Assembly: GCF_015533855.1 (NCBI RefSeq)
Contig: NZ_AP024154.1
Coordinates: forward strand, 2,362,501-2,426,500
From: Echinicola sp. 20G
GTDB lineage: Bacteria > Bacteroidota > Bacteroidia > Cytophagales > Cyclobacteriaceae
Reading direction: 5' to 3'
DNA: 64,000 bases
The notes below the pieces were generated by a model. The model had not been told where the DNA came from. It saw nothing but the letters and a program-made list of their open reading frames with translations, and searched no databases. Of the stretch, positions 33,744 to 55,930 are shown piece after piece; position 1 is the stretch's first letter; each line of letters begins with the position of its first letter. The position numbers were made by a program, and so were the translations under genes.

Positions 33744-35573
33744 ATGAAACGATTCAATTATACAGTTATTCCAATATTTGTTTTAATTTTTTGTACTTCC
33801 TGTGCAGCAGAGGATGTCAGTCCTATTATTGATGAGCCGGACTCCACTGAAACTGAGACGGTATATGCTAATAGGCAATTGATTCCTGCCAATAAGTCGT
33901 ATATGGAACCTTGGGATGGTCAAAACCCTGCGATGAGTTATAACCCTGATGCAGATCAGGACATAGTAGAGGATTGGATATCCGTTGACCATAATTTGGT
34001 AGGGTATTATGAATTGACCCCTGGGAAATACATTACGGGCATATCGTTAAAGATTGCTGATGGGGGAGAGACTGATTTCCAATTGAAAATTACTTCACCA
34101 AACGATGAGAGTTTTCAGGAAATTTCCAATGCAGTAGTAAGTGGTTCCGGAAGTTTTCAGGAAACGCTATTTGACACTATCCAAATCAGTCAAAAAGGTT
34201 TTTATAGGTTTGAGTTAGACCCTATCTCCAAGACAGGTGTCCAAGTGGCAGAGGTGGATGACTTTATTTTTCTAACTGATAAGGGATCGGCTAGGTATGC
34301 CAAATGGTTGTCCTCTCCTTCAGTTCATTTGAGTTTTAAGCCGGGTGATCAAGTTGCTAGGGAGTATGATTGGTTGTATGGAGAAATTAATGTTCCCCAA
34401 AATGCTGATCCAATGTACACTTTTTACATGTGCCTGGGATTTTATAGAGGATACTTTGGGATTCAAGTCAATAGTGCCTCAGAAAGAAGGGTGCTTTTTT
34501 CTGTTTGGGATAGCTCGGATGTGCCAGATGATCGTGAGGATGTGAACCCTGAGGATTTGGTGACTTTGATTGACAAAGGTGAGGAGGTTTACGCAGGTGG
34601 CTTTGGAAATGAAGGAACTGGAGGGCAGTCTTATTGGAAGTATCCCTGGGAAACGGCCGTTCCTGTCAAATTTATCATGAATGTGAGAAGAAACAATGAC
34701 AACACAGTGTTGTTGTCTGCTTGGTTTAAGGATGTAGAGGCTGAAGGCTGGAAATACATGGCCACGTGGAAAGCCCCTAAAGAGCAGCGGTATTTTGATG
34801 GATTCTATTCTTTCTTAGAAAACTTCGGAAACAGAAATGGACAAGAACTCCGTATGGCTGAATATTACAATATGTGGGGAAAGGAAGTAGATGGAAACTG
34901 GATCAACTTCAATAAAGCCAGTATGACACATACAGACGGAGTGCCAGAGGGTAGAGATGATTATGCAGGAGGGCTTTTACAAGGATCATCCAGTAAGTTT
35001 TATATGAGCTCTGGAGGTTACACTCATGCTGATGAGCAATCTGTCAGCTTTGCAAATATACAAACCAATACACCGGGTGCTGATCTTTCCGTTTTGACAG
35101 CTCGAGTAGATGAAGCACTGGACAATCAAGTTGTTCCTTTTGATAAAGATAATTGGTCTGTAATTGATTTTTCTTCAGAAGAGACATCTGGAGAAGGGGC
35201 TGATAATGGTCGTGCAGCGGACGCCATTGATGAAAACCCAGCTACTTTTTGGCACAGTCAATGGGCAGGAGGTAACCCAGGGTATCCCCATTATATCACT
35301 TTGGATTTAGGAGCTTCAAGGGAAGCAAAAGGACTGGTTATACAAAATAGGTCCAAACAGAATGGAAGGCCTAAAACTATTGAAGTAGAAGTAAGTGCAG
35401 ATAATTCCACGTGGACTTCTTTGGAAACCCTTAGTATCCCATTGGATGGAGGTGCTGTTAATTTTAACGCTCCCGCTACCTTCCAATACATCAAGTTGAC
35501 AATTACAGAAGGTCATCATGATGGAACAGAAAGTGAATTCTTTGTGCACGTTGCTGAAATAGGACTTTACTAA
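33744..35573 (+). CDS. DUF5077-DUF3472-discoidin surface lipoprotein
   Basis: A 609-residue lipoprotein (lipobox ending IFCTSC, then AAEDVSP). It has an N-terminal DUF5077 beta domain (about residues 40-170), a DUF3472 domain (about 180-430: ARYAKWLSSPSVHLSF, YGEINVPQNADPMYTFYMCL, GYFGIQVNSASERRVLFSVW, GNEGTGGQSYWKYPW, FYSFLENFGNRNG) and a C-terminal discoidin domain (about 468-609) with DFSSEETSGEG and TFWHSQW. DUF3472 has no established activity that I know. Its place in polysaccharide utilisation loci suggests a glycan-binding or glycan-active jelly-roll. A related protein without the discoidin tail is encoded at 54626. Confidence 0.88.
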   Translation: MKRFNYTVIPIFVLIFCTSCAAEDVSPIIDEPDSTETETVYANRQLIPANKSYMEPWDGQNPAMSYNPDADQDIVEDWISVDHNLVGYYELTPGKYITGISLKIADGGETDFQLKITSPNDESFQEISNAVVSGSGSFQETLFDTIQISQKGFYRFELDPISKTGVQVAEVDDFIFLTDKGSARYAKWLSSPSVHLSFKPGDQVAREYDWLYGEINVPQNADPMYTFYMCLGFYRGYFGIQVNSASERRVLFSVWDSSDVPDDREDVNPEDLVTLIDKGEEVYAGGFGNEGTGGQSYWKYPWETAVPVKFIMNVRRNNDNTVLLSAWFKDVEAEGWKYMATWKAPKEQRYFDGFYSFLENFGNRNGQELRMAEYYNMWGKEVDGNWINFNKASMTHTDGVPEGRDDYAGGLLQGSSSKFYMSSGGYTHADEQSVSFANIQTNTPGADLSVLTARVDEALDNQVVPFDKDNWSVIDFSSEETSGEGADNGRAADAIDENPATFWHSQWAGGNPGYPHYITLDLGASREAKGLVIQNRSKQNGRPKTIEVEVSADNSTWTSLETLSIPLDGGAVNFNAPATFQYIKLTITEGHHDGTESEFFVHVAEIGLY

Positions 35574-35602
35574 ACCAATTTTTAATACCAAAACTAACCA
35601 CA

Positions 35603-37228
35603 ATGAAAAAAAGTCAAATTTTGTGTTTTCTATTGTTTGCGGGACTCTACGGTTGTTCTATGGAGAATGTTGAGCCAGATCCTCCCGTGGTGGATGATGA
35701 AGAGGAGGAAGAAGAAGTAGTGGATCTGGGCAATTATGACTCAGATTATAACTACAATTTGAACGTTGTATATTTCGTTCCTGCGGACATCGAGCCATTA
35801 GAAAACTATCACGAGCGGTTATCGGGGATCATGCTGTTCATGCAGGATTGGTTCCAGGATGAAATGACCGAATTAGGCTTTCCCGGCAAAACCTTTGGAC
35901 TACTAAAGAGTGAAGTGGACCCTGACTATGTAAAAGTGATTGTTGTTCGAGGACAAGGGGGACAAGAGGATTATCCGTATGAGGGAGGAGGAAATGCAGC
36001 AGGAAATGAGATCAGATCGTACTTTAATGCACATCCTGACGAGGAGGCAGGAGCACACACTTTGGTGTTTATGCCTAGTCGTACCGGTGAAAATGGTTGG
36101 GATGCTGGAGGTGTACCTTTTTATGGACTCGGAAAGTGGTGCTACGCGCTGGATTACTTAAACTATGATATGCGATATTGGCAGGATGGTAGCAGGCAGG
36201 GTGATGAGCTATGGATTGGGGGAACCATTCATGAGTTGGGGCATGGGTTGAATTTACCCCACAACAAGCATAAAGCAACAGATGGTTGGACTTCCATGAT
36301 GTCTTGGGGAAACCATGAGTTCAATGATACCCCTGATCAGGTAAAGTTGACTTTTGCGGACGCTTTGATCCTTAATAACAATCAAATCATGAACAAAGAT
36401 GCGGGCAGTGATCACTACCAGGGTGATTTAGGCTTTAACCTGAAATCAATGCGGATTTACGCGGATGGGGAAAATTTATACCTGAAGAGTCGTTTTGAAT
36501 CTGAGATAGATATTAACGGTGTGATCGTTTATAATGACCCAAAAACGAGTGAGGGAGATGGGAATTACAATGCCATCACTTGGGCTACCAAAAACATCAT
36601 TGATGGAGATAGTATTTCCCTCACAATGCCCTTGGCTGGAATTGACCAAGATTTTAAACAATATCCGTTTGAGATGAGGGTAAGGTTCTGCCATGTAAAT
36701 GGCAATTTTACAGAGCTTAAATATGCTTATGCCTATGAAGGAGGTAAACCCAATATCGATGAGAAACTCAAGGAAGTAAATGAAATTTCCAAGGAGAATT
36801 GGGAAGTAGTTGGTGTATCCTCTGAAGAGTTGGTAGGTGGTGGTACCAACAAGGGTGCTGCCTCTAATATGTTAGATGGGAAGGATGATACATTTTGGCA
36901 TTCCCAGTGGTATCAAGCTAGTCCTCCTTTTCCTCACCATTTTATTTTAGACCTGGAAAAGGCCGAGGTTGTTCAAGGAATGGTGTTTGGCCAGCGATTG
37001 GATAAGTATAATGGTAGGGTAAAAACCGTCAATGTGGAAATCAGCAATGACGCCAATAGCTGGATTGACTTGGGTCAGTTTTCAGTTGGTGATACAACTA
37101 AGGAAATGGTTGAGTTTACTTCGTCCCAATCTTTCCGATATATTAAGGTCACGGTTACGGAAGGTCATGATAATGGAAGTGGTGAAAATGTATACTTCAC
37201 CCACTTGGCTGAGTTTGGTCTTTACTAA
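35603..37228 (+). CDS. Metzincin-like metalloprotease lipoprotein with discoidin domain
   Basis: A 541-residue surface lipoprotein (Cys18 in LYGC) with an acidic linker (DDEEEEEE) after the anchor. The catalytic region contains H210-E-L-G-H214-G-L-N-L-P-H220, an HExxHxxxxxH zinc site with Asn where most metzincins have Gly, and a likely Met-turn SMMSWG at 231-236. A beta-rich middle domain (about 270-385) precedes a discoidin domain (about 396-541, VSSEELVGGG, TFWHSQW). It may cleave the protein part of a glycoprotein whose sugar is recognised by the discoidin domain. It lies 29 bases after the DUF3472 gene and is the last gene of module 2. Confidence 0.85.
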   Translation: MKKSQILCFLLFAGLYGCSMENVEPDPPVVDDEEEEEEVVDLGNYDSDYNYNLNVVYFVPADIEPLENYHERLSGIMLFMQDWFQDEMTELGFPGKTFGLLKSEVDPDYVKVIVVRGQGGQEDYPYEGGGNAAGNEIRSYFNAHPDEEAGAHTLVFMPSRTGENGWDAGGVPFYGLGKWCYALDYLNYDMRYWQDGSRQGDELWIGGTIHELGHGLNLPHNKHKATDGWTSMMSWGNHEFNDTPDQVKLTFADALILNNNQIMNKDAGSDHYQGDLGFNLKSMRIYADGENLYLKSRFESEIDINGVIVYNDPKTSEGDGNYNAITWATKNIIDGDSISLTMPLAGIDQDFKQYPFEMRVRFCHVNGNFTELKYAYAYEGGKPNIDEKLKEVNEISKENWEVVGVSSEELVGGGTNKGAASNMLDGKDDTFWHSQWYQASPPFPHHFILDLEKAEVVQGMVFGQRLDKYNGRVKTVNVEISNDANSWIDLGQFSVGDTTKEMVEFTSSQSFRYIKVTVTEGHDNGSGENVYFTHLAEFGLY

Positions 37229-37250
37229 CTGTTATTTTAATTATTAGCGG

Positions 37251-37288
37251 GTAGGCTGCTTCGAAATTTCGAGGCAGCCTATTTTGTA
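37251..37288 (+). terminator. Terminator at the end of module 2
   Basis: TAGGCTGC pairs with GCAGCCTA, with a further inner CGAAA/TTTCG pairing, followed by a short T-rich stretch (ATTTTGTATT). Confidence 0.8.
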
Positions 37289-37361
37289 TTGATATAGATT
37301 GATAATGAGGAAGGATATAATGCTAATGTTAGTAAATTAAAGGGCACTAACCTTATTTTCG

Positions 37362-38468
37362 ATGATGCCCGAAATACCTAAAACCTCAAATGATCGATTA
37401 TTGTCTCTCGATTTTTATCGAGGACTGACCATGTTTCTTTTGATCGCTGAATTTTCCCAGCTGTTTTCCTATCTGGTGTCCCCTGACTTGGAAGGGACTT
37501 TTATTTACACATTGGGCGAACAGTTTCATCATGTCGAATGGGAAGGCTTACATTTTTGGGATTTGATCCAGCCCTTTTTTATGTTTATTGTAGGTGTAGC
37601 CATGCCCCTGTCTTTTACCAAAAGAATGGAGAAAGGGGATTCATATGCTCAACTTAGCAAGCATGCTTATTGGAGGGCCTTTTGGTTATTGATTTTGGGA
37701 TGGGCTTTGTATTGTATCGGTCCAGGAAGGATAGTTTTCCGTTTTCAGAATGTATTGGCTCAATTGGGGGTTACTTATATTTTAGCTTTTTGGGTTCTTC
37801 GTAAATCTCCTGCGATTCAGATTGGTTTTTCTATTTTGTTGATATTGATCAGTGAGTTGCTGTATAGGTTTTTTCCTGTAGTGGGATTTGATCAAGCTTT
37901 TGTCGCAGGGGAGAATTTTGGAGCTTGGTTCAATATATTGATTTCTGGTAAGGAAGATGGAGGTCACTGGGCGATGTTCAACGCCATTCCTACAGCGGCT
38001 CATACCATTTGGGGTGTTTGCGCTGGACAATTGCTACTCAGAAAAAGCTCAGATAAGAAAAAGCTCCAGGTGTTATTGTTGGCGGGGCTATTGGCTTTGA
38101 TATTTGGTTATGGAATTAGCCCGTTTACTCCGATTATTAAACGGATCTCAACGAGTAGCTTTGTGTTTGCTTCTGGAGGTTGGTCCTTGATTGCTTTGGT
38201 TATATGTTATTGGTGGATAGATGTTCGTAAAAATCAGAGAGGCGTGTGGTTCTTTGCTATCGTTGGATTGAACCCATTGTTCATCTACCTCTTTGCCCAT
38301 GTGGGTGGAGCGGACCTGATCCGGGATATTTTACTTCCTTTTTCTAACGCCCTGTTTGCTTGGATGGGAGAGTTGAGCGCTGCTATTGTGCTCAGTCTTT
38401 TGGTGCTTTTTGCGATGTGGTACATCTGCTTTTGGCTATATAAAAAGAAGATATTCTTCCGAATATAG
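37362..38468 (+). CDS. HGSNAT/NagX-like multi-pass acyltransferase (DUF5009-like)
   Basis: A 368-residue membrane protein with about ten hydrophobic helices. The N-terminus RLLSLDFYRGLTMFLLIAE contains the DxxRG-like signature (DFYRG) of the heparan-alpha-glucosaminide N-acetyltransferase family. It is followed by WDLIQPFFMFIVGVAMPLSF, FNAIPTAAHTIWGVCAGQLL and a C-terminal GLNPLFIYLFAHVG. Bacterial members (NagX) sit in N-acetylglucosamine utilisation loci and either acetylate glucosamine or move amino sugars. Next to PNGase and SusCD genes this fits processing of GlcNAc-containing glycans. It converges with the PNGase gene. Confidence 0.87.
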   Translation: MMPEIPKTSNDRLLSLDFYRGLTMFLLIAEFSQLFSYLVSPDLEGTFIYTLGEQFHHVEWEGLHFWDLIQPFFMFIVGVAMPLSFTKRMEKGDSYAQLSKHAYWRAFWLLILGWALYCIGPGRIVFRFQNVLAQLGVTYILAFWVLRKSPAIQIGFSILLILISELLYRFFPVVGFDQAFVAGENFGAWFNILISGKEDGGHWAMFNAIPTAAHTIWGVCAGQLLLRKSSDKKKLQVLLLAGLLALIFGYGISPFTPIIKRISTSSFVFASGGWSLIALVICYWWIDVRKNQRGVWFFAIVGLNPLFIYLFAHVGGADLIRDILLPFSNALFAWMGELSAAIVLSLLVLFAMWYICFWLYKKKIFFRI

Positions 38469-38493
38469 ACAAGGGAGATTATATGGATAGAAC

Positions 38494-38530: not shown

Positions 38531-38537
38531 GTTTCAT

Positions 38538-40457
38538 TTACTCTTTGACGCGTACCCGTTTATTGTACACCACCTTTCCTTTGACATAGACGCGGAAGTA
38601 GTACCGGCTTTTGGGGTACCTACTCAGGTCAAAGGTAAGTCTTCCTTCCTTGAAGTCCAGGTAATGATGTTCTTCGACTACTTCTCCGCCAGGATCCTTT
38701 ATCAATCTGATAAAAACTTCTTCAGGGTTGTTGGAAAGGTAATCAAAATAGGTGAAGTCATTGGTTCGGGTAGGAAACACACCCAAGGAGATTTCGTCTT
38801 CTTTGATAGGGTCAGTGTTTTCTCCGACAGTAAAATTATAGGTAATGCTGCTGCCAAAGTCAGAATCGAAACTTTTGAGGATTTTACCTTCTTGGTTGAG
38901 TAAAATGGCCTTTCCTCGTCCAGCTTTTGTTTTGTACCAAAATTCCAGACCATCCCCTCCTTTATCGGTCAGTACCAACCGATATGCTCCAGAAGGTAAG
39001 TTAAGCGAATCTTTATAAGTGGTGTCTGCAGCCAAAGTGCCTAGCACTCTATCAAAAATAATATTCCCTTTAGCATTAATAATTTTATAAGCATTCTCCT
39101 CGGCTGCATGATTGGTTTCCAAATGGAAAATCAAGTTTGGTTCGTGAACAGGAGTACGGGAATAGCTAGAAGTCATTTGGTTGTCTTCAGTGTACCCGTC
39201 TCTTTTTCCATTTGGTTTGCTCAGTTCAAAATTGTATTGCAGTTTTCCCTCTTGTGGGATGACTCCATCCATTCTGATAGTATCTGTTGCTCCTGGTTTT
39301 AAGTTGCCCTTCCATTGAAATTTGATCGGTTTTTGGCTTTCACCTCCATGATCAATTTGTAGGCTATTTAAGGTGTTGGCTCCATTGTTTTTGACAATGA
39401 TGGTGGGGCCAAAAGCAGCTGGGTTTACTCGGCTGTGGATGGCTTTATTAGAAGGAATAATCACGTCTTCAATGGAGACATCATTCTTTTCTACATAAGG
39501 CTTGTACTGGATCACATAAGCAGAAATCAGTTCGTTGGCGCTTGGCTTGGGAGAGGCATAGTTTTCCATTTGCAGCTGAACCGTTCTAGAAGCTTGGCTG
39601 AATTCAAAATCATAAATGTCCGGCTGGATCAAATCACCAGGACACCAGTTCGCGCGATCAAAAATCCAAGTGCCTGCCTGAGGATAAAGTGGATTTTCTC
39701 CACATTGTTTCCAGATTTGTCTGCTGGCCATTACTTTTCCATCCAAAAGAAAATCCCTGAACTTGTTACAGAATTCTCCACAGCCATCAGGTCTGTCCAT
39801 GCCATGACCTGTCTGGATGATCCTAAATCGTCCCAAAGAAGTTCCTTCTTCTTTAGATACATTTATCGGTTTTAATACATTTTCAATAGGATTTTCTTCA
39901 TCACCATACCGGTAATGTCCTTGGTATATTTTAGTGATGGAAACAGGCTCCATGGTAGGTTGGCCCTTGATTAGGTCGAACGCGACGGTTACCTTCCAGC
40001 CACGGTCCTTGTTAGGCTCATAGCCAGTGTGCTTGTACTCTATTTCTACACTGTCTCGAAGTAATAAGCTAAAGTCTGTCACATCTACTGCCCAGTCGAA
40101 TTCCCAATCTTCACCAAAAGCACCACCGTAAGGTGTTAGCATCCGGCCGATCTCATAATCCATCATTTCCCCATCTTTCCCACCGATTCGCTTCAAGGTA
40201 ATATGATCCACATAATCCCAATCAGCACAGCGCATGTTGTCAGGACAGGCGAATTTGATCTTCATGATGATTTTTCTAATCGCTTCTTTTTGATCCGGAA
40301 ATACGGCCCAATGGGTATAGGATTTTTCTCCCTTAGAAGGATCTGTCACGACTGTGATGGCATCATGACTGATAACTTGAATGGTGTCATTTGAGTCAGC
40401 AAAGCTTACTGTCTGGACAATTAGTAAACACAGCAATGTGAGTTGAAATTGCTTCAT
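38538..40457 (-). CDS. PNGase F-like peptide-N-glycosidase, probably T9SS-secreted
   Basis: A 639-residue secreted enzyme that should cut the amide bond between asparagine and the first GlcNAc of N-glycans. The ATG at 40457 gives a signal peptide (MKQFQLTLLCLLIVQTVSFA); the frame is open to 40493. Residues about 25-340 follow PNGase F: CADWDYVDH with Asp81 at the place of catalytic Asp60, YEIGRMLTPYGG, DVTDFSLLL, GCGEFC with Glu228 at the place of Glu206, and FDRANWCPG. An equivalent of Glu118 is not obvious. A long C-terminal extension ends like a type IX secretion domain (LGVFPTR, FDLSRYPKSRYYFRVYVKGK). It shares direction with the sulfatase gene upstream. Confidence 0.88.
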   Translation of the reverse strand: MKQFQLTLLCLLIVQTVSFADSNDTIQVISHDAITVVTDPSKGEKSYTHWAVFPDQKEAIRKIIMKIKFACPDNMRCADWDYVDHITLKRIGGKDGEMMDYEIGRMLTPYGGAFGEDWEFDWAVDVTDFSLLLRDSVEIEYKHTGYEPNKDRGWKVTVAFDLIKGQPTMEPVSITKIYQGHYRYGDEENPIENVLKPINVSKEEGTSLGRFRIIQTGHGMDRPDGCGEFCNKFRDFLLDGKVMASRQIWKQCGENPLYPQAGTWIFDRANWCPGDLIQPDIYDFEFSQASRTVQLQMENYASPKPSANELISAYVIQYKPYVEKNDVSIEDVIIPSNKAIHSRVNPAAFGPTIIVKNNGANTLNSLQIDHGGESQKPIKFQWKGNLKPGATDTIRMDGVIPQEGKLQYNFELSKPNGKRDGYTEDNQMTSSYSRTPVHEPNLIFHLETNHAAEENAYKIINAKGNIIFDRVLGTLAADTTYKDSLNLPSGAYRLVLTDKGGDGLEFWYKTKAGRGKAILLNQEGKILKSFDSDFGSSITYNFTVGENTDPIKEDEISLGVFPTRTNDFTYFDYLSNNPEEVFIRLIKDPGGEVVEEHHYLDFKEGRLTFDLSRYPKSRYYFRVYVKGKVVYNKRVRVKE

Positions 40458-40477
40458 TAAGGTATTAGATTTTAAGT

Positions 40478-40513
40478 AAACAAAGCCTTCCATTTTGGAG
40501 AAGGCTTTGTTTT
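40478..40513 (-). terminator. Terminator-like hairpin after the sulfatase gene
   Basis: AAACAAAGCCTTC pairs with GAAGGCTTTGTTT around a nine-base loop. It lies just past the sulfatase stop and 21 bases before the PNGase ATG. The U tract on the minus strand is short, so read-through into the PNGase gene is possible. Confidence 0.75.
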
Positions 40514-40527: not shown

Positions 40528-41946
40528 TTATTTGTTTTTGAGATTGATCATCTCTTGATTCCAGTCATTATGAATTTTAAGAAGTTCCTTGACTTTATCA
40601 GGACGCTGCTTCGCAAGGTTGGTGGTCTCTGTAGAGTCCGTAGCCATGTTGACCAAGTATAATTTATCGTCTTCACCAAACTCCAGCTCTTTTTCAGAAT
40701 CCCAAGGGTTGCCATGAAGTTTCCAATCTCCTTTTCGCACAGCCCATGAATTAGTGGTGATTTCAGGGTCACCAGTAGCCCAGTGTAAAACATCATGTTG
40801 GGAAGGTGTATTTTTATCTTTGATGATTGGCATCAAGCTCTTTCCGTCTATATCATCCTTATTTGGAATTTCAGTATTGGTCAGTTCGGCCAAAGTAGGC
40901 AACCAGTCTATGCTGTTGGCCATTTGGTTTCTGAGTTCATTGGCCGGTATTGCTTTCGGGTAGCGAATCATGGCAGGTACACGAATCCCTCCTTCCAGCA
41001 TACAGAACTTGGCACCATGGAATGGACCATTGTCACCACCACCATAGAAAGCTCGTTCCTCAGTGCTATGACCATGGTCAGACTGGTAAACTATAATGGT
41101 ATTGTCCAGTTGTCCAGTAGCTTCCAAATGATTCAATACCTCACCTATCATTTCGTCAAAAGTACTGATAAATGCCGCGTATTCTTTTCTTGGGCTAGGG
41201 GTGTCCTTATAATGATCTAGCCACTTTTTTCTGCCTTGATAAGGGTAGTGAGGCATGTTGATGGCCCAATAGATAAAGAATGGGTCTTCTTTTTCAGGTG
41301 CAGTGAATTTTTTGACTTCATCGACCATAAGGTCACCAAAGAATTCTCCTTGGTAATACACCTCTTCTTCGTTTCTGTAAAGGTCATGCATATTGGGGCC
41401 ATGCCAAAAAAAGAAATGGGAGAAGTTGTCGATACATCCTCTTTGGTGACCAAAGAAATAATCAAAGCCTTGGCCATTTGGTAGTTTTTCCGGACTGTGT
41501 CCCAAGTGCCACTTTCCGATCAATGCTGTATTATATCCTCCCTTCTTGAAAACCTCTGCCATGGTGATCTCATCCGTTGGAAGGCCAGACTTGAACTCCG
41601 GGTCAGCATGTGGCGGTGCTACATTGCCAAACAAGCGAGCATGAAAGTTGAATTTTCCTGTAAGCAAACTGGCTCTGGATGGGGAGCATACTGGTGCAGC
41701 CGCATAGAATTGAGTGAACCGGGTTCCTTCGTGTGCGATTCGGTCTAGATTCGGCGTTTCCAGGTCCTCAGAACCAAAAGCATTGATATCAAAGGTGCCT
41801 TGGTCATCTGTTAAAATAACCAACACATTAGGTTTACTTTTTGGTTTGGCTTGCTGAGTGCTTTGTTCATTGCTTTCTTGACTTTGGCAGGAAAGTAGAA
41901 GTATAGTTCCAGCAAGTCCTAGAAGGAAGTTTTTGAAATTTCTCAT
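40528..41946 (-). CDS. Lipoprotein sulfatase (family S1 type)
   Basis: A 472-residue sulfatase that hydrolyses sulfate esters on carbohydrates. The lipoprotein signal ends ILLLSC (Cys20). The catalytic motif is C87-S-P-S-R91 in VCSPSRASLLTG, whose cysteine must be converted to formylglycine by an anaerobic- or aerobic-type sulfatase maturase encoded elsewhere. Metal ligands are visible as LTDDQG (Asp47, Asp48) and YQSDHGHS, with GKWHLGHS and the HGAKFCMLEGGIRVPAMIRY region (in part) also typical. No cytosolic gene for sulfate or sugar catabolism is adjacent. It lies between modules 2 and 3 in the same direction as the PNGase gene. Confidence 0.95.
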   Translation of the reverse strand: MRNFKNFLLGLAGTILLLSCQSQESNEQSTQQAKPKSKPNVLVILTDDQGTFDINAFGSEDLETPNLDRIAHEGTRFTQFYAAAPVCSPSRASLLTGKFNFHARLFGNVAPPHADPEFKSGLPTDEITMAEVFKKGGYNTALIGKWHLGHSPEKLPNGQGFDYFFGHQRGCIDNFSHFFFWHGPNMHDLYRNEEEVYYQGEFFGDLMVDEVKKFTAPEKEDPFFIYWAINMPHYPYQGRKKWLDHYKDTPSPRKEYAAFISTFDEMIGEVLNHLEATGQLDNTIIVYQSDHGHSTEERAFYGGGDNGPFHGAKFCMLEGGIRVPAMIRYPKAIPANELRNQMANSIDWLPTLAELTNTEIPNKDDIDGKSLMPIIKDKNTPSQHDVLHWATGDPEITTNSWAVRKGDWKLHGNPWDSEKELEFGEDDKLYLVNMATDSTETTNLAKQRPDKVKELLKIHNDWNQEMINLKNK

Positions 41947-42271: not shown

Positions 42272-42883
42272 ATGTTTAAAGCAGGGAAAGATATAGATAG
42301 AGAAAAGGTGGAGGCCTTGAAAAAGGGTGATGAATTTGCTTATAATAGCCTATTTAGGAAATACGCCAAGAAAATCTATCATGTTTCCCGAAAAATGCGA
42401 TTGGGTCATGAGGATGCTGAAGGAGTGGTTCAGGAAGTGTTTATCAAAATTTGGAGAAACCGAGAAAACCTGGATCCTTCATTATCATTTAATGCATACT
42501 TAATTACCATTACACGGTCTATAGTCATTAGGCAAATAGAAAGACAAGTGAAGCTTTCTATTTACAAGGATCATTTATTCATGACAACCGATAAAGGACA
42601 TAATCATACGGAAGACTATGTGATTTTTTCAGACTTGATGGATGAGTCATGTAAGGTGATGGACAGTCTTCCTCCTCAACAAAAGCAAGTCTTTATGATG
42701 AAAAATTTTGATCATCTAAGTCTTGATGAAATAGCTGATCAACTTCAGGTTTCAAAAAAGACTGTAAAGAATCATTTTTTCAGGGCTAACAAATCCCTTA
42801 AAGAAAAGCTTCTTGATTCAAAAATAATTTCACTGGTTTTCCTTATTGCAAGCTGTCTGATAGTGAGTGTGAATTTTTTGTAA
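42272..42883 (+). CDS. ECF sigma factor of module 3
   Basis: A 203-residue ECF sigma factor. Region 2 is AYNSLFRKYAKKIYHVSRKM followed by EGVVQEVFIKIWRNRENL. Region 4 is LPPQQKQVFMMKNFDHLSLDE and IADQLQVSKKTVKNHFFRANKSLK. The last about 20 residues are strongly hydrophobic (IISLVFLIASCLIVSVNFL), suggesting membrane association or a clip for the anti-sigma factor. The FecR gene follows after 66 bases. Confidence 0.94.
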   Translation: MFKAGKDIDREKVEALKKGDEFAYNSLFRKYAKKIYHVSRKMRLGHEDAEGVVQEVFIKIWRNRENLDPSLSFNAYLITITRSIVIRQIERQVKLSIYKDHLFMTTDKGHNHTEDYVIFSDLMDESCKVMDSLPPQQKQVFMMKNFDHLSLDEIADQLQVSKKTVKNHFFRANKSLKEKLLDSKIISLVFLIASCLIVSVNFL

Positions 42884-42949
42884 AAATATTTTAATCCTAC
42901 TGGGTCTTTTGTCTACCTCGCGTCTATATAATATTATAAGGCGAGATAA

Positions 42950-47603: not shown

Positions 47604-47615
47604 ATCAGGAATTAA

Positions 47616-49397
47616 ATGAAAAAGATAAAAAATATAGTCTTAGGCCTTTCATTATTAGGGATGACAGCAAGTTGTGTGGAGAGCACTTTAGATAAAACTC
47701 CCGAATTGGCCTTTTCAGAAGATAATGCTTTTGCTAACTTTCAAGTAACGCAAACTTACGCATTTGGTTTCTATACCATATTTCCCGGTTTTGACCTGAG
47801 CGTTCCAAATAGTGAATGGGATGGAGACCTGATGATGCATAATAATAGCAATCAAGGTTCAAGTTGGATTTGGGGGAGACAAATCATTCCTACTACGTCT
47901 GGAATTTGGGATTTTTCCTTTGTAAGAAGAGTGAATATTATGCTTCAAAACTTAGATGCTTCAGATATGTCTGAAGCTGAAAAGAACCACTGGAGAGCAG
48001 TTGGCTATTTCTTTAGGGCTTATGATTACTATGACAAGATTGCAGCATATGGGGATGTGCCATGGATAGATAGGGTTTTGACTGATGATGATGAATTGCT
48101 TTATGCTCCAAGGACCCCAAGGGCTGAAGTGGCTCAGCATATACTTGATGACTTGTTATTCGCTGAGGAAAACATCATGGAACCAGGTACCAATGGTATT
48201 CCATCAAATTCGATCAGTAGTGATGTGGTAAGGGCCATGATTTCCAGATTTGGTTTGTTTGAAGGGACTTGGAGAAAATATCATGGTCTTCAAGGAGCTG
48301 AAGCTTTTCTTAGAGCAAGTGCAGATGCTGGTGAAGTGTTGATAGCCAATAATCCCACATTGCACTCTAATTATAATGAGCTTTTTAATAGTGCAGATTT
48401 GGCAGGAGTTCCTGGTGTCTTGTTGTATAAAAGTTATGAGAACGGAGTTTTGACACATGTACTTACTTCTAGACATAGGAACTCAGCTGGTAATTGGGAT
48501 ATAACAAAAAGAGGTGCCGACTCTTACTTGATGAAAGATGGACAAACTCGCTGGAATAGCGATTTATTTGAAACGGATAGAGATCCTTATGCAGAGTTTA
48601 GAAATAGGGATTTAAGAATGCTTTATACTATCACGCCTCCTTTCAGGGTGAAGCCGGTATCTGGTAATCGCTTGGCTTGGGACTATTCTGATGATCCAAA
48701 AGACCGTGAATATATTGACTTTATGCAAGGAATAAGTGATGCTACTCAAAAGCAATTACCAAGTAGAAATCATGCTGGTTATATTTTGAGGGTTTCTCCA
48801 CATTTCAGGGACTTTAATGAGGGTGATCCCTATAATGTTTCAAGAACAGGTTACAAATTATTTAAATACTATAACAGGCTTCATGATATTCAGAATAATG
48901 ATTTCAATGATGCCCCTATTTTCAGAATGGGAGAAGTAATGGTGAATTATGCCGAAGCTAAATGGGAACTGGGTGAATTTGACCAAACTGTTGCAGATGC
49001 TACCATCAATATGTTGAGGGAACGAGGTGAAGTAGCACCTATGGAGATTTCAGCGGTTGGCGCTGAATTTGATCCAACAAGGGATCCAGAAGTGGACCCG
49101 ATACTTTGGGAGATAAGAAGAGAAAGAGGAATTGAGTTAATGGCGGAAGGATATAGGTTCAATGACTTGAGAAGATGGAAGAAAATGGACTATACCAACG
49201 ATCCTAAATTAGGTAGATGGATTGTAGGAGCTGATGTAAATAATCGTATCCCAATCCAAGGAGGAGCTGCTGAAGGTTATATCCAGTTTTTTCCTGGAAC
49301 CCCACCAGCTTGGGAAGATTATCAATATCTTTACCCAGTACCATCTCAGGAAATAGCTCTGAATCCTAATTTGGAACAAAACCCCGGTTGGGAATAG
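47616..49397 (+). CDS. SusD/RagB-type surface glycan-binding lipoprotein, module 3
   Basis: A 593-residue lipoprotein (signal MKKIKNIVLGLSLLGMTASC). SusD features are HWRAVGYFFRAYDYYDKIAA (the TPR-like core), FRMGEVMVNYAEAKWELGEF, RRERGIELMAEGYRFNDLRR and YLYPVPSQEIALNPNLEQNPG. It works with the preceding SusC in uptake. The gene is closed by a long terminator hairpin, so module 3 ends here. Confidence 0.95.
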   Translation: MKKIKNIVLGLSLLGMTASCVESTLDKTPELAFSEDNAFANFQVTQTYAFGFYTIFPGFDLSVPNSEWDGDLMMHNNSNQGSSWIWGRQIIPTTSGIWDFSFVRRVNIMLQNLDASDMSEAEKNHWRAVGYFFRAYDYYDKIAAYGDVPWIDRVLTDDDELLYAPRTPRAEVAQHILDDLLFAEENIMEPGTNGIPSNSISSDVVRAMISRFGLFEGTWRKYHGLQGAEAFLRASADAGEVLIANNPTLHSNYNELFNSADLAGVPGVLLYKSYENGVLTHVLTSRHRNSAGNWDITKRGADSYLMKDGQTRWNSDLFETDRDPYAEFRNRDLRMLYTITPPFRVKPVSGNRLAWDYSDDPKDREYIDFMQGISDATQKQLPSRNHAGYILRVSPHFRDFNEGDPYNVSRTGYKLFKYYNRLHDIQNNDFNDAPIFRMGEVMVNYAEAKWELGEFDQTVADATINMLRERGEVAPMEISAVGAEFDPTRDPEVDPILWEIRRERGIELMAEGYRFNDLRRWKKMDYTNDPKLGRWIVGADVNNRIPIQGGAAEGYIQFFPGTPPAWEDYQYLYPVPSQEIALNPNLEQNPGWE

Positions 49398-49542: not shown

Positions 49543-51132
49543 ATGACTAGAGCACTTTCATTAGCCTTCCTTGTTTTAATTAGCTTTTCCTGTTCTAAAA
49601 GTGCTCAAGATAGTACTTATTGGCCTCAGCCGGCGGGTCCAAATGGGGATTGGGTTGTGGAGACTGATGAACAAGTTCCAGAAAGTTTTAGTGTGACTAC
49701 TGGCGAAAACATCCTTTGGAAGACTCCTTTGCCTGAAGGGGGACAAAGTGGGATTGCAGTATGGGAAGATCGAATTTTTCTTTCGGTGATGAAGCCAGTT
49801 GCTGCTGTCAACGAAAAAAGTGATTTGTTGGGAGCTGATATTTTGGCCTTATGTGTGGATGCTAAAGATGGGAAGGTTTTATGGGAAAAGGAGCTGAGTG
49901 GAAGTGTGAAAAGTGAATATATGTATGGGTTTTCTGATTCCAGCACGCCAGGGCCCGTGACAGATGGGGAATATGTTTGGTTTTACAATGCCAGTGGCAA
50001 CCTCAGCTGTTATGATTTTGAAGGAAATAGACAATGGGAAAGGACTTGGAAGCCTGTAGAAGAGCTGGATGGAGTTCATTTTCCTTTCAACAAACAGTTT
50101 GAGCCAATTGTCCATGGCGATGTAGTTTTGAATATGGAACCTTATTGGGAGAAGGGTGGCGACCGTGTTTATGGTTGGAATTATATTTATGCCATTGACA
50201 AGCATACTGGGAAAGTAAAATGGATTTCTGAAGATGGATTGACGCATTATAATACTCCCCAATATGGTTGTATGAAGGATGGAACTCCGGCCGTTTTGAT
50301 AGGGCGTGGAGGACATCATGGTGTCCCAGAGTCGCCTAAAGGGTATTCAATGGTTGATCTTAAAGAGGGCAAACGGTTATGGCAATATCAAACTGCTGAA
50401 GGTATGGCCCTTTACAATGCTACTTGGAATGAGGATCAGGCCATCTGGTATACCGAAAGTGAGAATGAAATCCATGTTTTAAATTCCCAGAATGGAAAGT
50501 TGGAAAAGAAAATATCTCTGGTGGATAATGTCGATGTTAGGTTGTGGAATTCAGAAAAGAAGCAATATGATTTGTTTGAAAATATTGACATGGATGAGAA
50601 GTTAAACCCAGTGGTTTTTCCAGCATGGTATTCCAATATTAAAGTGGGTGAAAAGCTTTTTTTTATGTGTTTTAAAAAAGGAAACTATAGAGACAATATT
50701 GGGCCTGATTATTCTTTTGGAAAAGTGGATTTGCAAACAGGCAAGGTGGAGTATCTCCAAGTTCCTGTTCAGGTCAGTCATGAAAGAGGTACGAAAAATT
50801 ATCTTTGGAATCAAGATTTGAAGACCCAAACCAACAATGTTAGAGGGCTTGATGTAGCTCATGATAAAAGGTCTCAAAGGGATGGGTGGCATTGGAATTT
50901 TAATGGAAATCCTATTTGCGTTAACAATAAGGTGTTTTTTACAACAATGTTGGGGGTTGTTTATTGTGTGCGCACAGATACAGAATATTTTGATAAGCGT
51001 GCTTTGGTTAGTGTAAATGACCTTGGCCCATTTGGGGAGACTTGGTCTGTCAATACGCCTTCATTTGCTAATGGAAAGTTGTACCATAGGACTTTAAAGG
51101 AGCTTATCTGTATTGAAGCAATTCATAAATAG
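49543..51132 (+). CDS. PQQ-like beta-propeller lipoprotein
   Basis: A 529-residue lipoprotein (lipobox ISFSC, Cys in SFSCSKS). Repeated beta-propeller blades of the PQQ/BamB type are visible, for example ILALCVDAKDGKVLWEKEL, YIYAIDKHTGKVKWISEDG and YSMVDLKEGKRLWQYQT. There are no methanol-dehydrogenase catalytic residues, so it is a scaffold or ligand-binding propeller rather than a quinoprotein enzyme. Such proteins often accompany sulfatases and glycosidases in marine Bacteroidota loci. Its partner is unknown. It has its own upstream region after the module 3 terminator. Confidence 0.8.
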   Translation: MTRALSLAFLVLISFSCSKSAQDSTYWPQPAGPNGDWVVETDEQVPESFSVTTGENILWKTPLPEGGQSGIAVWEDRIFLSVMKPVAAVNEKSDLLGADILALCVDAKDGKVLWEKELSGSVKSEYMYGFSDSSTPGPVTDGEYVWFYNASGNLSCYDFEGNRQWERTWKPVEELDGVHFPFNKQFEPIVHGDVVLNMEPYWEKGGDRVYGWNYIYAIDKHTGKVKWISEDGLTHYNTPQYGCMKDGTPAVLIGRGGHHGVPESPKGYSMVDLKEGKRLWQYQTAEGMALYNATWNEDQAIWYTESENEIHVLNSQNGKLEKKISLVDNVDVRLWNSEKKQYDLFENIDMDEKLNPVVFPAWYSNIKVGEKLFFMCFKKGNYRDNIGPDYSFGKVDLQTGKVEYLQVPVQVSHERGTKNYLWNQDLKTQTNNVRGLDVAHDKRSQRDGWHWNFNGNPICVNNKVFFTTMLGVVYCVRTDTEYFDKRALVSVNDLGPFGETWSVNTPSFANGKLYHRTLKELICIEAIHK

Positions 51133-51498: not shown

Positions 51499-54400
51499 AT
51501 GAAGTCCTTTTTTACCACAGCTTTGTGCGTAATGGCGCTAGTGCATAACACTTTTGCACAGGAAAAAAAAGCTGACCCCATATTCGAAAATCCTAATGTT
51601 CAGGAGGAGAATAGGCTCCCCATGAGATCTTCTTATTTTCCTTTTGAAAATGAGCAATTAGCAGAGGCTAATGATAAGGCGGCATCTGAGAGATTTTTAG
51701 ACCTGAATGGAACCTGGAAGTTCTTTTGGACAGATCATTATGAAAAATTGCCTGAAGATTTTGAGACAATTGGTTTTGATGATCAGGCTTGGGACGATTT
51801 TAAAGTACCAGCCAACTGGGAGTTTAATGGTTATGGTACTCCGATTTACGTAAACCATCCGTTTGAATTTGCAGTCAAAAACCCAAATCCCCCTTATATA
51901 GAAAACAAGGATAATCCTGCAGGTGTATACCGAAGAACAATTTCTTTACCAACTGCTTGGGAGAATGAGCAGGTTTTTATCCATTTGGGAGCGGTAAAGT
52001 CAGCTTTTAGACTTTATGTAAATGGTGAGTACGTAGGCCTTGGGGAAGACAGTAAGCTGGAGTCCGAATATGAACTTACCGATTATGTAAAATCAGGTGA
52101 CAACTTGATCACGATCGAAGTAAGAAGATGGCATGATGGTTCTTATCTGGAGGCGCAGGACTTTTGGAGGATTTCTGGTATTGAGCGTGATGTTTATTTG
52201 TACAGCAGACCAAAGGTGCATTTCTATGATCTTTTTGTGAAGAGTCCTTTGGTGAATAACTATAGAGATGGAAAGCTAAATGTGACCGTTGATCTGTGGA
52301 ACAGGACAGAAGAGCAGCAGGGTGAGAACACGGTAACTGCCAAGCTTTTTGACCCTCAGGGTAATTTGATTTTCGAAAAGTCTCAAAAGACAGTTGGGCT
52401 GAAAAGGGTGTTAGGAAAGACTGTTTTGAATTTTGCGGCAGAAATCCCAAGTGTGTTAGCATGGTCTGCCGAAATCCCTACTTTATATGAATTGGAATTG
52501 ATTTTGGCTGATGAGTCTGGAGATACAAAGGAAGTGATTCGCCAGAATGTAGGTTTTAGAACCTATGAAATCGTAGCCAATCAGTTTTTGGTGAATGGAA
52601 AACCAGTATTGTTTAAAGGGGTGAACAGACACGAGTCTCATCCTGAGACGCACCACGTCATGACACGTGAGCAAATGGAAACAGATGTGCGCATCATGAA
52701 GGAGTTGAACATGAATGCGGTGAGACTTTCCCACTATCCAAATGATCCTTACTGGTATGAGCTATGTGATAAATATGGTTTTTATGTGATAGATGAGGCA
52801 AATATTGAGTCACATGGAATGTACTATAGCCCGGAAAAATCTTTGGGTAATGCCCCAGAATGGCTAAATGCTCATATGTTGAGAATCAAGAGAATGATTT
52901 TCAGAGATAAAAACCATCCATCGGTAGTAGCTTGGAGTATGGGGAATGAAGCTGGAAATGGTTACAATTTCTACAAAGCTTATGAGTGGATCAAGGCATA
53001 TGATCCTTCCCGTCCGGTTCAGTATGAAAGATCTACTTTTGAATGGAATACAGACATTATCGTACCACAATATCCGCATCCAAAAACAATGGAGAGGTAT
53101 GCAGAGAGTAATCCTCCAAGACCATATATTATGAGTGAATATGCCCATGCCATGGGAAATAGTATGGGGAACTTCAAGGAGTATTGGGAAGTGATTAAAA
53201 AGTACCCTATGCTCCAGGGAGGTTATATCTGGGACTGGGTGGACCAAGGTATATATCTCGAAAAAGATGGTAAGACAGTGTTTGGTTATGGTGGAGACTG
53301 GGGTCCAGAAGGAACTCCTAGTGACAACAACTTCTTGATCAATGGTGTGATCATGCCTGATAGAAGATGGAATCCTCATGCTTATGAAGTAAGAAGGGCC
53401 CATCAGGATGTTTCTTTCAAACTGACCAAAGAAGATAAACTGGAAATTTTTAATGAGTACTTCTTCCGTGATATCGCTAACTATGAATTTGAAGCGATTT
53501 TACTGAAAGATGGAGTAGAAGTGAAAAGAGCAAAGGTGGGTTCTTTTGGTCTTGCTCCAAGACAGAAGTCTGTTGTGGAATTGCCTTTTGAGCTTGTAAG
53601 AGATGAGGCTGCTGAGTATAGACTTCAGATTGAAGGCAAAATTATTGAAGAGGAAGGGAGAATGTCTCCAGGTACCTTGTTAGCTGAAGCTGAGTTTGGA
53701 CTGACAGAACCTGTTTTAACGACTTTTTCTCCAGAAACAGCTGAAGTAGAAGTGTCAGAAGAAGGAAATACATTAAGCATTAAAAACAAACTGTTCTCCG
53801 TCAACTTTGATAAGACAACAGGCCAGTTCCATGATTATAAAGTGAAAAATAAGGAACTGATCATTGATGGTCCTTCTTTGTCTTTGTTTAGACCATTGGT
53901 AGACAATGACTTTGGTGGCGGTCGTGGTCAGAAGTTAGATTACTTGCATGGGAATGTGACTAAGCTGAAAAGTATATCTCACAAAAAAGCAACTGATGGT
54001 GCCTATCAGGTGACAGTATTGTATGATGTGCTAGGTGGAGATGCCTCTTTTACACAAGTATATAGTTTCTCCAATGATGGCAAGATCAAAGTAGATAATG
54101 ATTTTAAAGCGATCAAGGGAGAACATGATTATCTTCTCAAGTTAGGAACGGATTTGAAATTGCCAGGTGAATTGGATCATTTCAAATGGTATGGAAGAGG
54201 TCCTTGGGAAAGTTATGTTGACCGTAAGTTCAGTGCTCAGGTGGGATTGTATGAAGGAAGTGTCATGGAACAATACCACCCTTACGTTAGGCCTCAGGAA
54301 TCAGGAAACAAGACTGACGTTCGCTGGGCTACAGTAAGAAAAGAAGGTAAAGAAGGGGTAAGGATTTTAGCTGTTGATCATTTACTAAATGTAAGTGCAC

Positions 54401-54615
54401 TACCTTATGGTATTGATCAGCTTTACCCAGGCAAAGAAAAGCAGAATATTCATAGCGGTGAGTTGGAGCCAAATGGCTTTACGAATTTGCATGTGGACCT
54501 GATCCAAACAGGTGTGGCTGGCATTAATAGCTGGGGTTCCATTGCTTTAGAAGAGTATAGGGTTCCATTTGCAGACCATTCCTATAGCTATATCATTGCG
54601 CCTGTTCAAAAATAA
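51499..54615 (+). CDS. Secreted GH2 beta-galactosidase (LacZ-type)
   Basis: A 1038-residue glycosidase that hydrolyses terminal beta-galactosides. A signal peptide (first 20 residues, HNTFAQ) shows it is exported. The domain order matches E. coli LacZ: sugar-binding (about 40-230), Ig-like (about 245-355), TIM barrel (about 357-650) with acid/base Glu484 in MGNEAG and nucleophile Glu547 in IMSEYAH, and the C-terminal small chain (about 760-1035). Residues RHESHPETHHV and RLSHYPND are also typical. Ten bases separate its stop from the DUF3472 lipoprotein gene, so the two form an operon. It may remove galactose from N-glycan antennae or algal galactans. Confidence 0.95.
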   Translation: MKSFFTTALCVMALVHNTFAQEKKADPIFENPNVQEENRLPMRSSYFPFENEQLAEANDKAASERFLDLNGTWKFFWTDHYEKLPEDFETIGFDDQAWDDFKVPANWEFNGYGTPIYVNHPFEFAVKNPNPPYIENKDNPAGVYRRTISLPTAWENEQVFIHLGAVKSAFRLYVNGEYVGLGEDSKLESEYELTDYVKSGDNLITIEVRRWHDGSYLEAQDFWRISGIERDVYLYSRPKVHFYDLFVKSPLVNNYRDGKLNVTVDLWNRTEEQQGENTVTAKLFDPQGNLIFEKSQKTVGLKRVLGKTVLNFAAEIPSVLAWSAEIPTLYELELILADESGDTKEVIRQNVGFRTYEIVANQFLVNGKPVLFKGVNRHESHPETHHVMTREQMETDVRIMKELNMNAVRLSHYPNDPYWYELCDKYGFYVIDEANIESHGMYYSPEKSLGNAPEWLNAHMLRIKRMIFRDKNHPSVVAWSMGNEAGNGYNFYKAYEWIKAYDPSRPVQYERSTFEWNTDIIVPQYPHPKTMERYAESNPPRPYIMSEYAHAMGNSMGNFKEYWEVIKKYPMLQGGYIWDWVDQGIYLEKDGKTVFGYGGDWGPEGTPSDNNFLINGVIMPDRRWNPHAYEVRRAHQDVSFKLTKEDKLEIFNEYFFRDIANYEFEAILLKDGVEVKRAKVGSFGLAPRQKSVVELPFELVRDEAAEYRLQIEGKIIEEEGRMSPGTLLAEAEFGLTEPVLTTFSPETAEVEVSEEGNTLSIKNKLFSVNFDKTTGQFHDYKVKNKELIIDGPSLSLFRPLVDNDFGGGRGQKLDYLHGNVTKLKSISHKKATDGAYQVTVLYDVLGGDASFTQVYSFSNDGKIKVDNDFKAIKGEHDYLLKLGTDLKLPGELDHFKWYGRGPWESYVDRKFSAQVGLYEGSVMEQYHPYVRPQESGNKTDVRWATVRKEGKEGVRILAVDHLLNVSALPYGIDQLYPGKEKQNIHSGELEPNGFTNLHVDLIQTGVAGINSWGSIALEEYRVPFADHSYSYIIAPVQK

Positions 54616-54625
54616 ACTCAAAAAA

Positions 54626-55930
54626 ATGGGATTTAAAACGTTGTTGACATTGTCGTTATTTGCAGGCCTTCTGGCCTGCAATAATGACTCTTTAGAAGAT
54701 TTAGAAAAGGAATATTTGTCCCAGTTGTCCATTCCTGTAGGAGGAAATACTTATGTGACATCAGGTGGTGAAGGTGCCAAGGTCAGCAGGAAAGGTACTG
54801 TGATAGACTGGACAAAAGAAGAGGCTGTATTGAGTACTTATTTTAAATTGCCTCAAGCAGAGAAGGCTTTGTTGCAACTGATTGTAGATAGCAGAGAATC
54901 TTCCAGTGAGATAAAAGTATCAGTTGGAGAAAATGCTGAAGTAGTCAGTTTAGAGGCAGGGACTGAGGATACGGTGAGTGTAGGCTTGTTTGATTTGCCT
55001 GCAGGGTATGTGCAAGTAGATGTTCAGGGTGTGTCCAAATCAGGAGAATCCTACCCTTCGCTTAAGTCACTTATGGTTCTTACAAAGAGTGAAGTGGACA
55101 TTACTTATGTCAAGGACAATGAGAGTAATCGCTTTTATTGGGGTAGAAGAGGTCCTTCAGTGCATTTGAGCTATACCTTGCCGGAAGATAAAAACTTCAA
55201 ATGGTTTTACAACGAAATCACTGTTCCTGAGGGAGAAGATCCAAATGGTTCATATTATATGGCCAATGGCTTTGGTGAAGGTTATTTTGGAATACAGGCC
55301 AATTCTGATACAGAAAGAAGGGTGCTGTTTTCAGTTTGGAGCCCGTTTCATACCAATAACCCTGATGAGATACCTGAAGATCAGCGCATCAAATTGCTGA
55401 AAAAAGGGGAGGGAGTGAATACAGGTGAGTTTGGCAATGAAGGTTCTGGGGGACAGAGCTTTTTTCGCTACAATTGGATTACGGGAAATACCTATCGATT
55501 TTTGAATTCCGTGGAGCCTGATGGCAAAGGAAATACAATTTATACAGCTTATTTTTATGCTCCAGAAGTAGGTAAGTGGAAATTGATAGCCAGTTTCTTG
55601 AGGCCTCAGACAGATACTTGGTATAAGCGTCCCCACTCATTTCTAGAGAATTTTATTGATAGAAATGGTTATATAGGTCGAAAGGCTTTTTATCATAATC
55701 AGTGGGTCATGGACACGGAAGGAAATTGGGAAGAGTTGACTGAAGCAAAATTTACGGGAGATGATATTGCGCGTAGAGGATACAGGCTTGATTATGCAGG
55801 AGGAGAAGAAAGCGGTATGTTCTTTTTAAGAAATGGAGGATACTTCAATGACTTTGTTGAGTTGAACAGTATGCATGGCCGCAGTCCAAAAGGAAAAGCT
55901 CCTGAGATTGATTTTGAGAACTTGGATTGA
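54626..55930 (+). CDS. DUF5077-DUF3472 surface lipoprotein
   Basis: A 434-residue lipoprotein. The ATG at 54626 gives the signal MGFKTLLTLSLFAGLLAC; the frame is open to 54569 inside the GH2 gene. Residues about 35-165 are a DUF5077-like beta domain, and about 175-420 a DUF3472 domain (SVHLSYTLPEDKNFKWFYNE, EGYFGIQANSDTERRVLFSVW, GNEGSGGQSFFRYNW, HSFLENFIDRNG). It matches the protein at 33744 domain for domain but lacks the discoidin tail. The acidic residues after the cysteine (NNDSLEDLE) suggest surface display. It shares an operon with the beta-galactosidase. Confidence 0.87.
   Translation: MGFKTLLTLSLFAGLLACNNDSLEDLEKEYLSQLSIPVGGNTYVTSGGEGAKVSRKGTVIDWTKEEAVLSTYFKLPQAEKALLQLIVDSRESSSEIKVSVGENAEVVSLEAGTEDTVSVGLFDLPAGYVQVDVQGVSKSGESYPSLKSLMVLTKSEVDITYVKDNESNRFYWGRRGPSVHLSYTLPEDKNFKWFYNEITVPEGEDPNGSYYMANGFGEGYFGIQANSDTERRVLFSVWSPFHTNNPDEIPEDQRIKLLKKGEGVNTGEFGNEGSGGQSFFRYNWITGNTYRFLNSVEPDGKGNTIYTAYFYAPEVGKWKLIASFLRPQTDTWYKRPHSFLENFIDRNGYIGRKAFYHNQWVMDTEGNWEELTEAKFTGDDIARRGYRLDYAGGEESGMFFLRNGGYFNDFVELNSMHGRSPKGKAPEIDFENLD

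Follow-up and report, generated by a model that had tools for sequence, protein, structure and literature searches.

We analyzed a 64,000-nucleotide stretch of the genome of Echinicola sp. 20G (contig NZ_AP024154.1, positions 2,362,501 to 2,426,500), here called the window; positions are those of the window unless stated otherwise. The host genome is a single contig of 5.79 Mb. Judged from sequence, the genes at 33744–55930 and the modules flanking them probably form a multi-module island, controlled by sigma/FecR regulators, for the use of animal glycoproteins that are sulfated and mucin-like and bear O-glycans as well as N-glycans. Mucin-type O-glycoproteins are predicted to make up at least half of the substrate, because the island encodes a homologue of the O-glycopeptidase OgpA and DUF3472 proteins that resemble di-glutamate mucinases. 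An earlier sequence-only reading had proposed sulfated N-glycoproteins as the substrate. The N-glycan part of that proposal is retained, given the fold and catalytic acids of the peptide:N-glycosidase (PNGase) and the glycoside hydrolase (GH) families GH29 and GH20 found near such PNGases elsewhere, and O-glycoproteins are now placed beside it. All the genes named in that reading were recovered at their coordinates by open reading frame (ORF) listing and confirmed by Pfam/NCBIfam scans.

Predicted O-glycoproteases

The gene at 35603–37228 (plus strand) encodes a lipoprotein with an OgpA-like O-glycopeptidase domain, a module resembling carbohydrate-binding module (CBM) family 32 and the zinc site HELGHGLNLPH. 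Over 280 residues, its metzincin catalytic domain aligns with PDB entry 6z2d, an O-glycan protease (E 1.1e-49); for the residue-level comparison this entry was taken to be Akkermansia OgpA. The HExxHxxxxxH zinc site and the Met-turn are kept (H210, E211, H214, H220 and M233). The Gal-GalNAc pocket of OgpA is described, in the passages cited, as formed by Y116, F166, K198, W199, N235 and Y236 (PMC7518263), and four of these six residues (Y116, F166, W199 and N235) are kept. By sequence comparison, the protein is a homologue of OgpA-type O-glycopeptidases; its earlier description as a metzincin protease was incomplete in this respect.

The OgpA catalytic domain is rare. Of the 395 phylum genomes sampled, five have it at E ≤ 0.001, the host genome included, and the match is strong in three of the five. 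In genome G427, from another family of the phylum, three OgpA homologues stand among sigma/FecR/SusCD genes with GH109-like, GH29, GH20 and sulfatase genes. OgpA homologues also accompany SusCD in genome G499, where one homologue has a GH29 gene at a distance of about 6 kb. Echinicola sp. 20G has four OgpA-like copies. Two paralogues lie away from the island (contig coordinates, G000:C1, 1172362–1173975 and 5640242–5641882); the former is near an S9 peptidase and an SSF symporter, and sulfatase-like genes are found 12–14 kb off.

Two further lipoproteins, both candidate HC7-like mucinases, contain DUF3472. The first (33744–35573, plus strand, PF11958 E 6.5e-76) carries a CBM32-like module, and the second (54626–55930, plus strand, Pfam) a CBM-like DUF5077 domain; the ORF of the latter is listed from 54569 to 55930, with a likely ATG start at 54626. 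E272 and E341 of the second protein are the only two glutamates invariant in 25/25 sequences, in which D205 and D389 are likewise invariant. The invariant glutamates of the first protein, in its own numbering, are Glu290 and Glu359. HC7 is described as a di-glutamate mucinase of Bacillus cereus K8 with the structures 8pmu, 8pn3 and 8pn5 (PMC13003899). The catalytic-domain fold, modelled for the 54626–55930 paralogue only, resembles that of HC7 at 18–20% identity to the HC7 structures; E272 and E341 may correspond to HC7 residues such as Glu200. On the strength of the model, both DUF3472 proteins resemble di-glutamate mucinases.

A wider proposal is that the DUF3472 proteins, a widespread family, are mucin-type O-glycoproteases of the di-glutamate kind, which in Echinicola would work with the OgpA-type protease and a PNGase of H(T/S)GYE type in one island importing mucin glycopeptides, the N- and O-glycans being removed inside the cell. 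We regard the chances of this proposal as evenly balanced. PF11958 occurs in 27/296 phylum genomes searched. In the open-licence full-text literature searched, a scope that does not include the Nature Catalysis paper defining HC7, no report of DUF3472 as a protease, or of any other activity of this domain, was found. DUF3472 is also described as horizontally acquired from bacteria by centipedes, where it occurs in venom proteins, many of them with DUF5077 (PMC7864903); the fold match leads to the prediction that these venom proteins are glutamic peptidases. If true, the proposal would give DUF3472 and its centipede venom relatives a testable function, that of a glutamic O-glycoprotease.

The PNGase–sulfatase pair

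A PNGase F superfamily amidase is encoded at 38538–40493 on the minus strand (PF09113 E 1.3e-13; PDB 3pms E 4e-17). The protein has the double jelly-roll fold of PNGase F. Its D93 and E240, invariant in 28/28 aligned members, match the catalytic D60 and E206 by PDB alignment, where we assumed the Asp60/Glu206 numbering of PNGase F. In place of the Glu118 loop, the subgroup to which the protein belongs has H(T/S/A)G(Y/W)E. The H(T/S/A)G motif is present in 24/24 subgroup members, with T, S or A at position 118 by manual alignment across an indel, and four further rows of the alignment stand outside this subgroup. Extra C-terminal beta domains are present. The N-terminal domain PF09112 gave no match in the protein or in the genome, and control genomes gave no match either. 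Members of the subgroup are candidate enzymes that may tolerate core alpha-1,3-fucose. The subgroup (L078–L157) spans Bacteroidota and a few other phyla. The subfamily also occurs in Flavihumibacter, Pedobacter and Mucilaginibacter, which are mostly soil or freshwater bacteria, and the marine-specific substrate that had been suggested was dropped for this reason.

The adjoining gene (40528–41946, minus strand, PF00884 E 1.3e-64) encodes an S1-type sulfatase lipoprotein. The translation holds CSPSRASLLTG, including the C-x-P-S-R motif that we take to be the S1 formylglycine site. Its best solved relatives are mostly carrageenan sulfatases (6prm, E 1.6e-66; 9fo1), and an entry named N-acetylgalactosamine-6-sulfatase, 7ana, has a nearly equal score (E 4.9e-59). 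Naming a subfamily (S1_19, S1_16 or S1_20) from the best PDB matches was dropped, as the scores were too close. The sulfatase and PNGase genes, 34 bp apart on the minus strand, make up a two-gene unit of their own.

This pair is adjacent in 6/6 Echinicola genomes (the window genome, E. arenosa, G047, E. shivajiensis, E. salinicaeni and E. pacifica), a set brought in as PNGase-holding, so that PNGase-less Echinicola fall outside the count. The DUF3472-CBM32 and OgpA genes stand beside the pair in four of the six, the exceptions being G047 and E. pacifica. GH20, sulfatase, PNGase, DUF3472 and LacZ genes lie together in E. pacifica. Outside Echinicola, neighbors of the same PNGase subfamily were counted in 48 loci chosen from 80, with 4 Echinicola loci and 28 judged lineage repeats or incomplete left out. 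Pfam was run on 105 neighbor genes against the 106 counted, one locus-edge gene having been dropped, and covers the best 25 of 163 families. GH29 and GH20 genes are enriched beside this PNGase in other Bacteroidota, and GH125 genes are also found near it.

Island architecture and proposed pathway

The region has the architecture of a Sus-like polysaccharide utilization locus (PUL), with adjacent SusC and SusD genes, regulators and enzymes. The enzyme genes had been described as interleaved with SusCD modules. Four modules are indeed present between 16439 and 62969, of which one SusCD pair lies within 33744–55930 and three modules flank it. Each module has its own pair of extracytoplasmic function (ECF) sigma factor and FecR anti-sigma genes (Pfam; SusC of module 4 by homology). 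All four modules are on the plus strand. Module 1 consists of the ECF sigma factor (16439–17083), FecR (17256–18335), SusC (18584–21976), SusD (21990–23822) and a surface binding lipoprotein with BT_3987-like_N/DUF1735 and CBM32-like domains (23865–24827). In module 2, the regulators (25239–27265) are followed by SusC, SusD and a DUF4959-DUF5126-F5/8C binding lipoprotein (27348–33679). Module 3 comprises regulators at 42272–43978 and SusC and SusD at 44121–49397, and module 4 (56137–62969) contains sigma, FecR, SusC (58041, by homology only) and SusD.

The first DUF3472 gene begins 64 bp after the SusCD and surface glycan-binding protein (SGBP) genes of module 2, and the OgpA-like gene follows at a gap of 29 bp. 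CBM32-like modules with about 33–44% identity are common to the SGBP, DUF3472 and OgpA proteins. Because gene order is common to related genomes, the grouping of the island genes is not due to chance. A gene-by-gene comparison with G047, E. shivajiensis and E. arenosa found module 1 in all three. Module 2 is missing from G047, and E. shivajiensis has a divergent SusCD only.

A lipoprotein-type cysteine followed by acidic residues was seen by eye in the OgpA-like and first DUF3472 proteins, both of which the pattern missed, and was found by pattern in the second DUF3472 protein and two binding proteins. Such N-termini resemble Bacteroidetes surface-export signals as described (PMC5080379). The sulfatase N-terminus is less acidic after the cysteine, and no lipoprotein-type cysteine was seen by eye at the N-termini of the PNGase or LacZ.

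Gene content, conservation, folds and active-site residues are what the analysis shows; what the island acts on, where in the cell each protein works, in which order and under what control we infer as follows. The CBM-bearing surface lipoproteins (OgpA-like and DUF3472) would bind O-glycosylated stretches and cut the backbone to glycopeptides, which the SusCD pairs would import. In the periplasm, the PNGase would take N-glycans and the sulfatase sulfate, and the GH2 enzyme, with GH29 and GH20 enzymes encoded near the locus, would trim the chains of galactose, fucose and hexosamine. The NagX-like membrane protein may help in the uptake or acetylation of amino sugars. Glycopeptide import before periplasmic N-glycan removal fits the preference for glycopeptides described for a gut PNGase (PMC9522356).

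The remaining genes of the interval include a LacZ-type GH2 beta-galactosidase (51499–54615, plus strand; NF052611 958 bits, cut-off 999) and an inner-membrane protein of the NagX/HGSNAT-like acyltransferase family, DUF5009-like (37362–38468, plus strand). The latter scores 124 bits with NF046061 (cut-off 480) and 24.7 bits with PF16401 (cut-off 25). Its gene is kept in G047 and E. arenosa, and the slot in E. shivajiensis and E. salinicaeni holds an unrelated 441-aa protein (L082 12106–13431 and L080 12029–13354; PAP2-like in E. shivajiensis). A PQQ_2 beta-propeller lipoprotein is encoded at 49543–51132 (plus strand, Pfam), and homologues stand beside the sulfatase in G047, E. shivajiensis and E. 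salinicaeni. Neither this lipoprotein nor the 441-aa PAP2-like neighbor gave a substrate clue. Beside the DUF3472 gene of E. shivajiensis there is a 1148-aa FG-GAP/UnbV_ASPIC protein (L082 17256–20702), and a 1123-aa protein occupies that place in E. salinicaeni.

The sequence-only reading had noted the lack of fucosidase, sialidase, mannosidase and GH18 genes. In the interval this holds, as Pfam found no GH29, GH33, GH92, GH18 or GH20 domain in its 12 main proteins. Beyond the interval it needs qualification. Two GH29 genes and another GH2 gene stand between SusCD and LacZ in the locus of G047 and in that of E. shivajiensis, which also has a second OgpA gene (OgpA2) there. The window genome has an OgpA2-GH2-GH29 block at contig positions 2489423–2494478, 63–68 kb past the window end; the stretch before this block encodes GH20, PL8 (polysaccharide lyase family 8), a protein resembling heparinase II/III and three sulfatases, of which one was recognized by Pfam and two by homology. 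GH20, GH92 and BNR (sialidase-like) genes are found elsewhere in this genome. Two candidates for the locus were rejected: a GH109 enzyme, since the sole PF21252 (GH109_C) match of the genome is about 2.2 Mb away, and a sialidase, since all six BNR_2 matches lie elsewhere in the genome.

Contig positions 2449967–2479984 (window ~87467–117484) contain a glycosaminoglycan-like cluster with two sigma/FecR/SusCD modules, which comprises heparinase II/III-like, beta-helix and GH43-like genes, PL8 with CBM96 and three S1 sulfatases, two of them in tandem and 72% identical. Three neighboring L,D-transpeptidase genes at 10688–14763 (two Scaffold-YkuD and one YkuD_2, Pfam) are unrelated to the island. 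A 3228-aa ORF begins at 63559 and extends beyond the window end (contig positions 2426059–2435745).

Alternative explanations and known systems

Several results weigh against a mucin-type glycoprotein island. In the predicted OgpA pocket, K198 is replaced by L203 and Y236 by H238. OgpA is absent from the G047 genome and from the 10 kb around the E. pacifica PNGase. The PNGase lacks Glu118 and has no acidic residue at this position, so it was not filed as type I (PNGase F proper). The solved relatives of the sulfatase, with the labels S1-19, S1_16 and GalNAc-6-sulfatase, have similar scores and do not fix the subfamily. Profiles built from 9 and from 25 DUF3472 members recovered 4qhw, a DUF3472 domain of solved structure, and showed no relation to HC7 up to E 10. 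DUF3472 neighborhoods were fetched from 20 of the 26 other PF11958-positive genomes. Eleven of the 20 are without GH109-like, GH123 and AgaS-like genes. GH109-like genes were found in five cases, three of them from one genus, and three AgaS-like genes stand 5–6 kb off on the opposite strand. These calls were made by phmmer to one example each, and the Pfam/NCBIfam scans covered the examples and the G427 GH109-like protein; the AgaS-like example reached 361 bits, below the TIGR02815 cut-off of 529, and the G427 protein gave weak NCBIfam matches to dehydrogenase models. P values for these contexts are post hoc and uncorrected for relatedness.

The neighbor counts outside Echinicola point the same way. 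The link of PNGase with desulfation, which the sulfatase adjoining the PNGase in six Echinicola genomes favors, is not general, as sulfatases are not enriched there (1/106 operon-like neighbors vs 8/516 other genes). The values are 0/106 vs 3/516 for NagX and 2/106 vs 1/516 for GH2, and OgpA, DUF3472 and PQQ are found in 0/106 and 0/516. In addition, 11/48 representative loci have no operon-like neighbor, and RecJ accounts for 9/105 sampled neighbor genes.

The separate sigma/FecR pairs mean that the modules may answer to different glycans. Several independent neighboring PULs, each with its own substrate and one served by the PNGase/sulfatase pair, would be the reading taken from these four pairs, from the GH29/GH2 block that is inside the locus in two relatives and distant here, and from the absence of module 2 in G047. 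We consider it unlikely, since much of the gene order is common to the compared genomes, the SGBP, DUF3472 and OgpA proteins share CBM32-like modules, and every predicted enzyme is suited to the sugars of animal-type glycoproteins.

A system for sulfated N-glycoproteins only, in which the PNGase releases the chains, sulfatase and GH2 trim them, with accessory roles for the protease and the DUF3472 proteins, seems to us about equally unlikely. The sulfatase-PNGase-LacZ-DUF3472 set does persist without OgpA in E. pacifica and G047, and in other genomes this PNGase has GH29, GH20 and GH125 genes nearby. However, the homology to OgpA, most of whose glycan pocket is retained, points to O-glycoproteins, as do the HC7-like fold and two invariant glutamates of DUF3472, which is present even in the smaller loci.

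GH2 and sulfatase genes are a usual pair in sulfated galactan loci. A PUL of carrageenan or agar type, with sulfatase and LacZ processing galactan oligosaccharides, would agree with the mostly carrageenan-directed solved relatives of the sulfatase. It was set aside as very improbable because scans of the interval's proteins revealed no endo-galactanase, 7ana scores nearly as well, and the PNGase and protease genes are left unexplained. Turnover or processing of the cell's own O- or N-linked surface glycoproteins, to which the non-PUL contexts of PNGase in many Bacteroidota (beside RecJ in Flavobacteriia, or alone) might point, is the least credible, as the Echinicola PNGase stands among SusCD importers, sigma/FecR and surface binding proteins, a feeding architecture.

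Under the preferred reading, an island for mucin-like O- and N-glycoproteins, the nearest known systems are BT4244 PUL78, the Akkermansia ogpA region and the gut PNGase loci. The sequence-only reading had concluded that the locus is no copy of the known gut high-mannose or complex N-glycan loci. With those of B. thetaiotaomicron the island shares SusCD, a surface protein with the BT_3987-like_N domain and sigma/FecR, which presumably belong to those loci. Release there is described as due to GH18 endoglycosidases (PMC9522356). In contrast, neither GH18 nor GH92 was found among the scanned Echinicola interval and module proteins; GH92 occurs elsewhere in the genome, and GH18 was not searched genome-wide. 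The DUF3472 proteins differ from HC7 in bearing DUF5077 or CBM32 modules in place of CBM5.

The gut Bacteroides Group 1/2 PNGase loci are described as holding GH29, GH2, GH20 and even sulfatase genes (Crouch 2022, PMC9522356), and the Echinicola PNGase resembles them in its fold and in the association with these four families. Position 118 is Asp or Gly in the gut enzymes and T, S or A in the Echinicola subgroup, and the Echinicola protein is without the N-terminal bowl domain, has extra C-terminal domains and is accompanied by an O-glycoprotease homologue.

In Akkermansia muciniphila, OgpA is described beside the GH95 Amuc_1120 and the predicted sulfatase Amuc_1118 (PMC7518263). In both regions, a sulfatase gene and a gene of fucosidase type lie close to the O-glycopeptidase, and the two O-glycopeptidases are homologous. 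The passages cited mention neither a Sus-like system nor a PNGase for the Akkermansia region, and Echinicola adds CBM32 modules and sigma/FecR control.

The combination of PNGase, OgpA and DUF3472 in one locus, and the link between DUF3472 and HC7, were not reported in the open-licence full-text literature searched. New O-glycoproteases and PNGases would be useful glycoproteomics tools. In mucin PUL78 of B. thetaiotaomicron, the O-glycopeptidase BT4244 is described with GH2 and GH109 enzymes (PMC7518263). The Echinicola island is like PUL78 in being a SusCD-type locus with a predicted mucin-cutting protease, GH2 and GalNAc-directed enzymes. It is unlike PUL78 in that its proteases are of OgpA and DUF3472/HC7 type and not M60, which we take to be the family of BT4244, and in that PNGase and sulfatase are built in. 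The island suggests that loci combining N- and O-glycoprotein breakdown occur in free-living marine members of the Bacteroidota; mucin degradation would then not be confined to gut symbionts.

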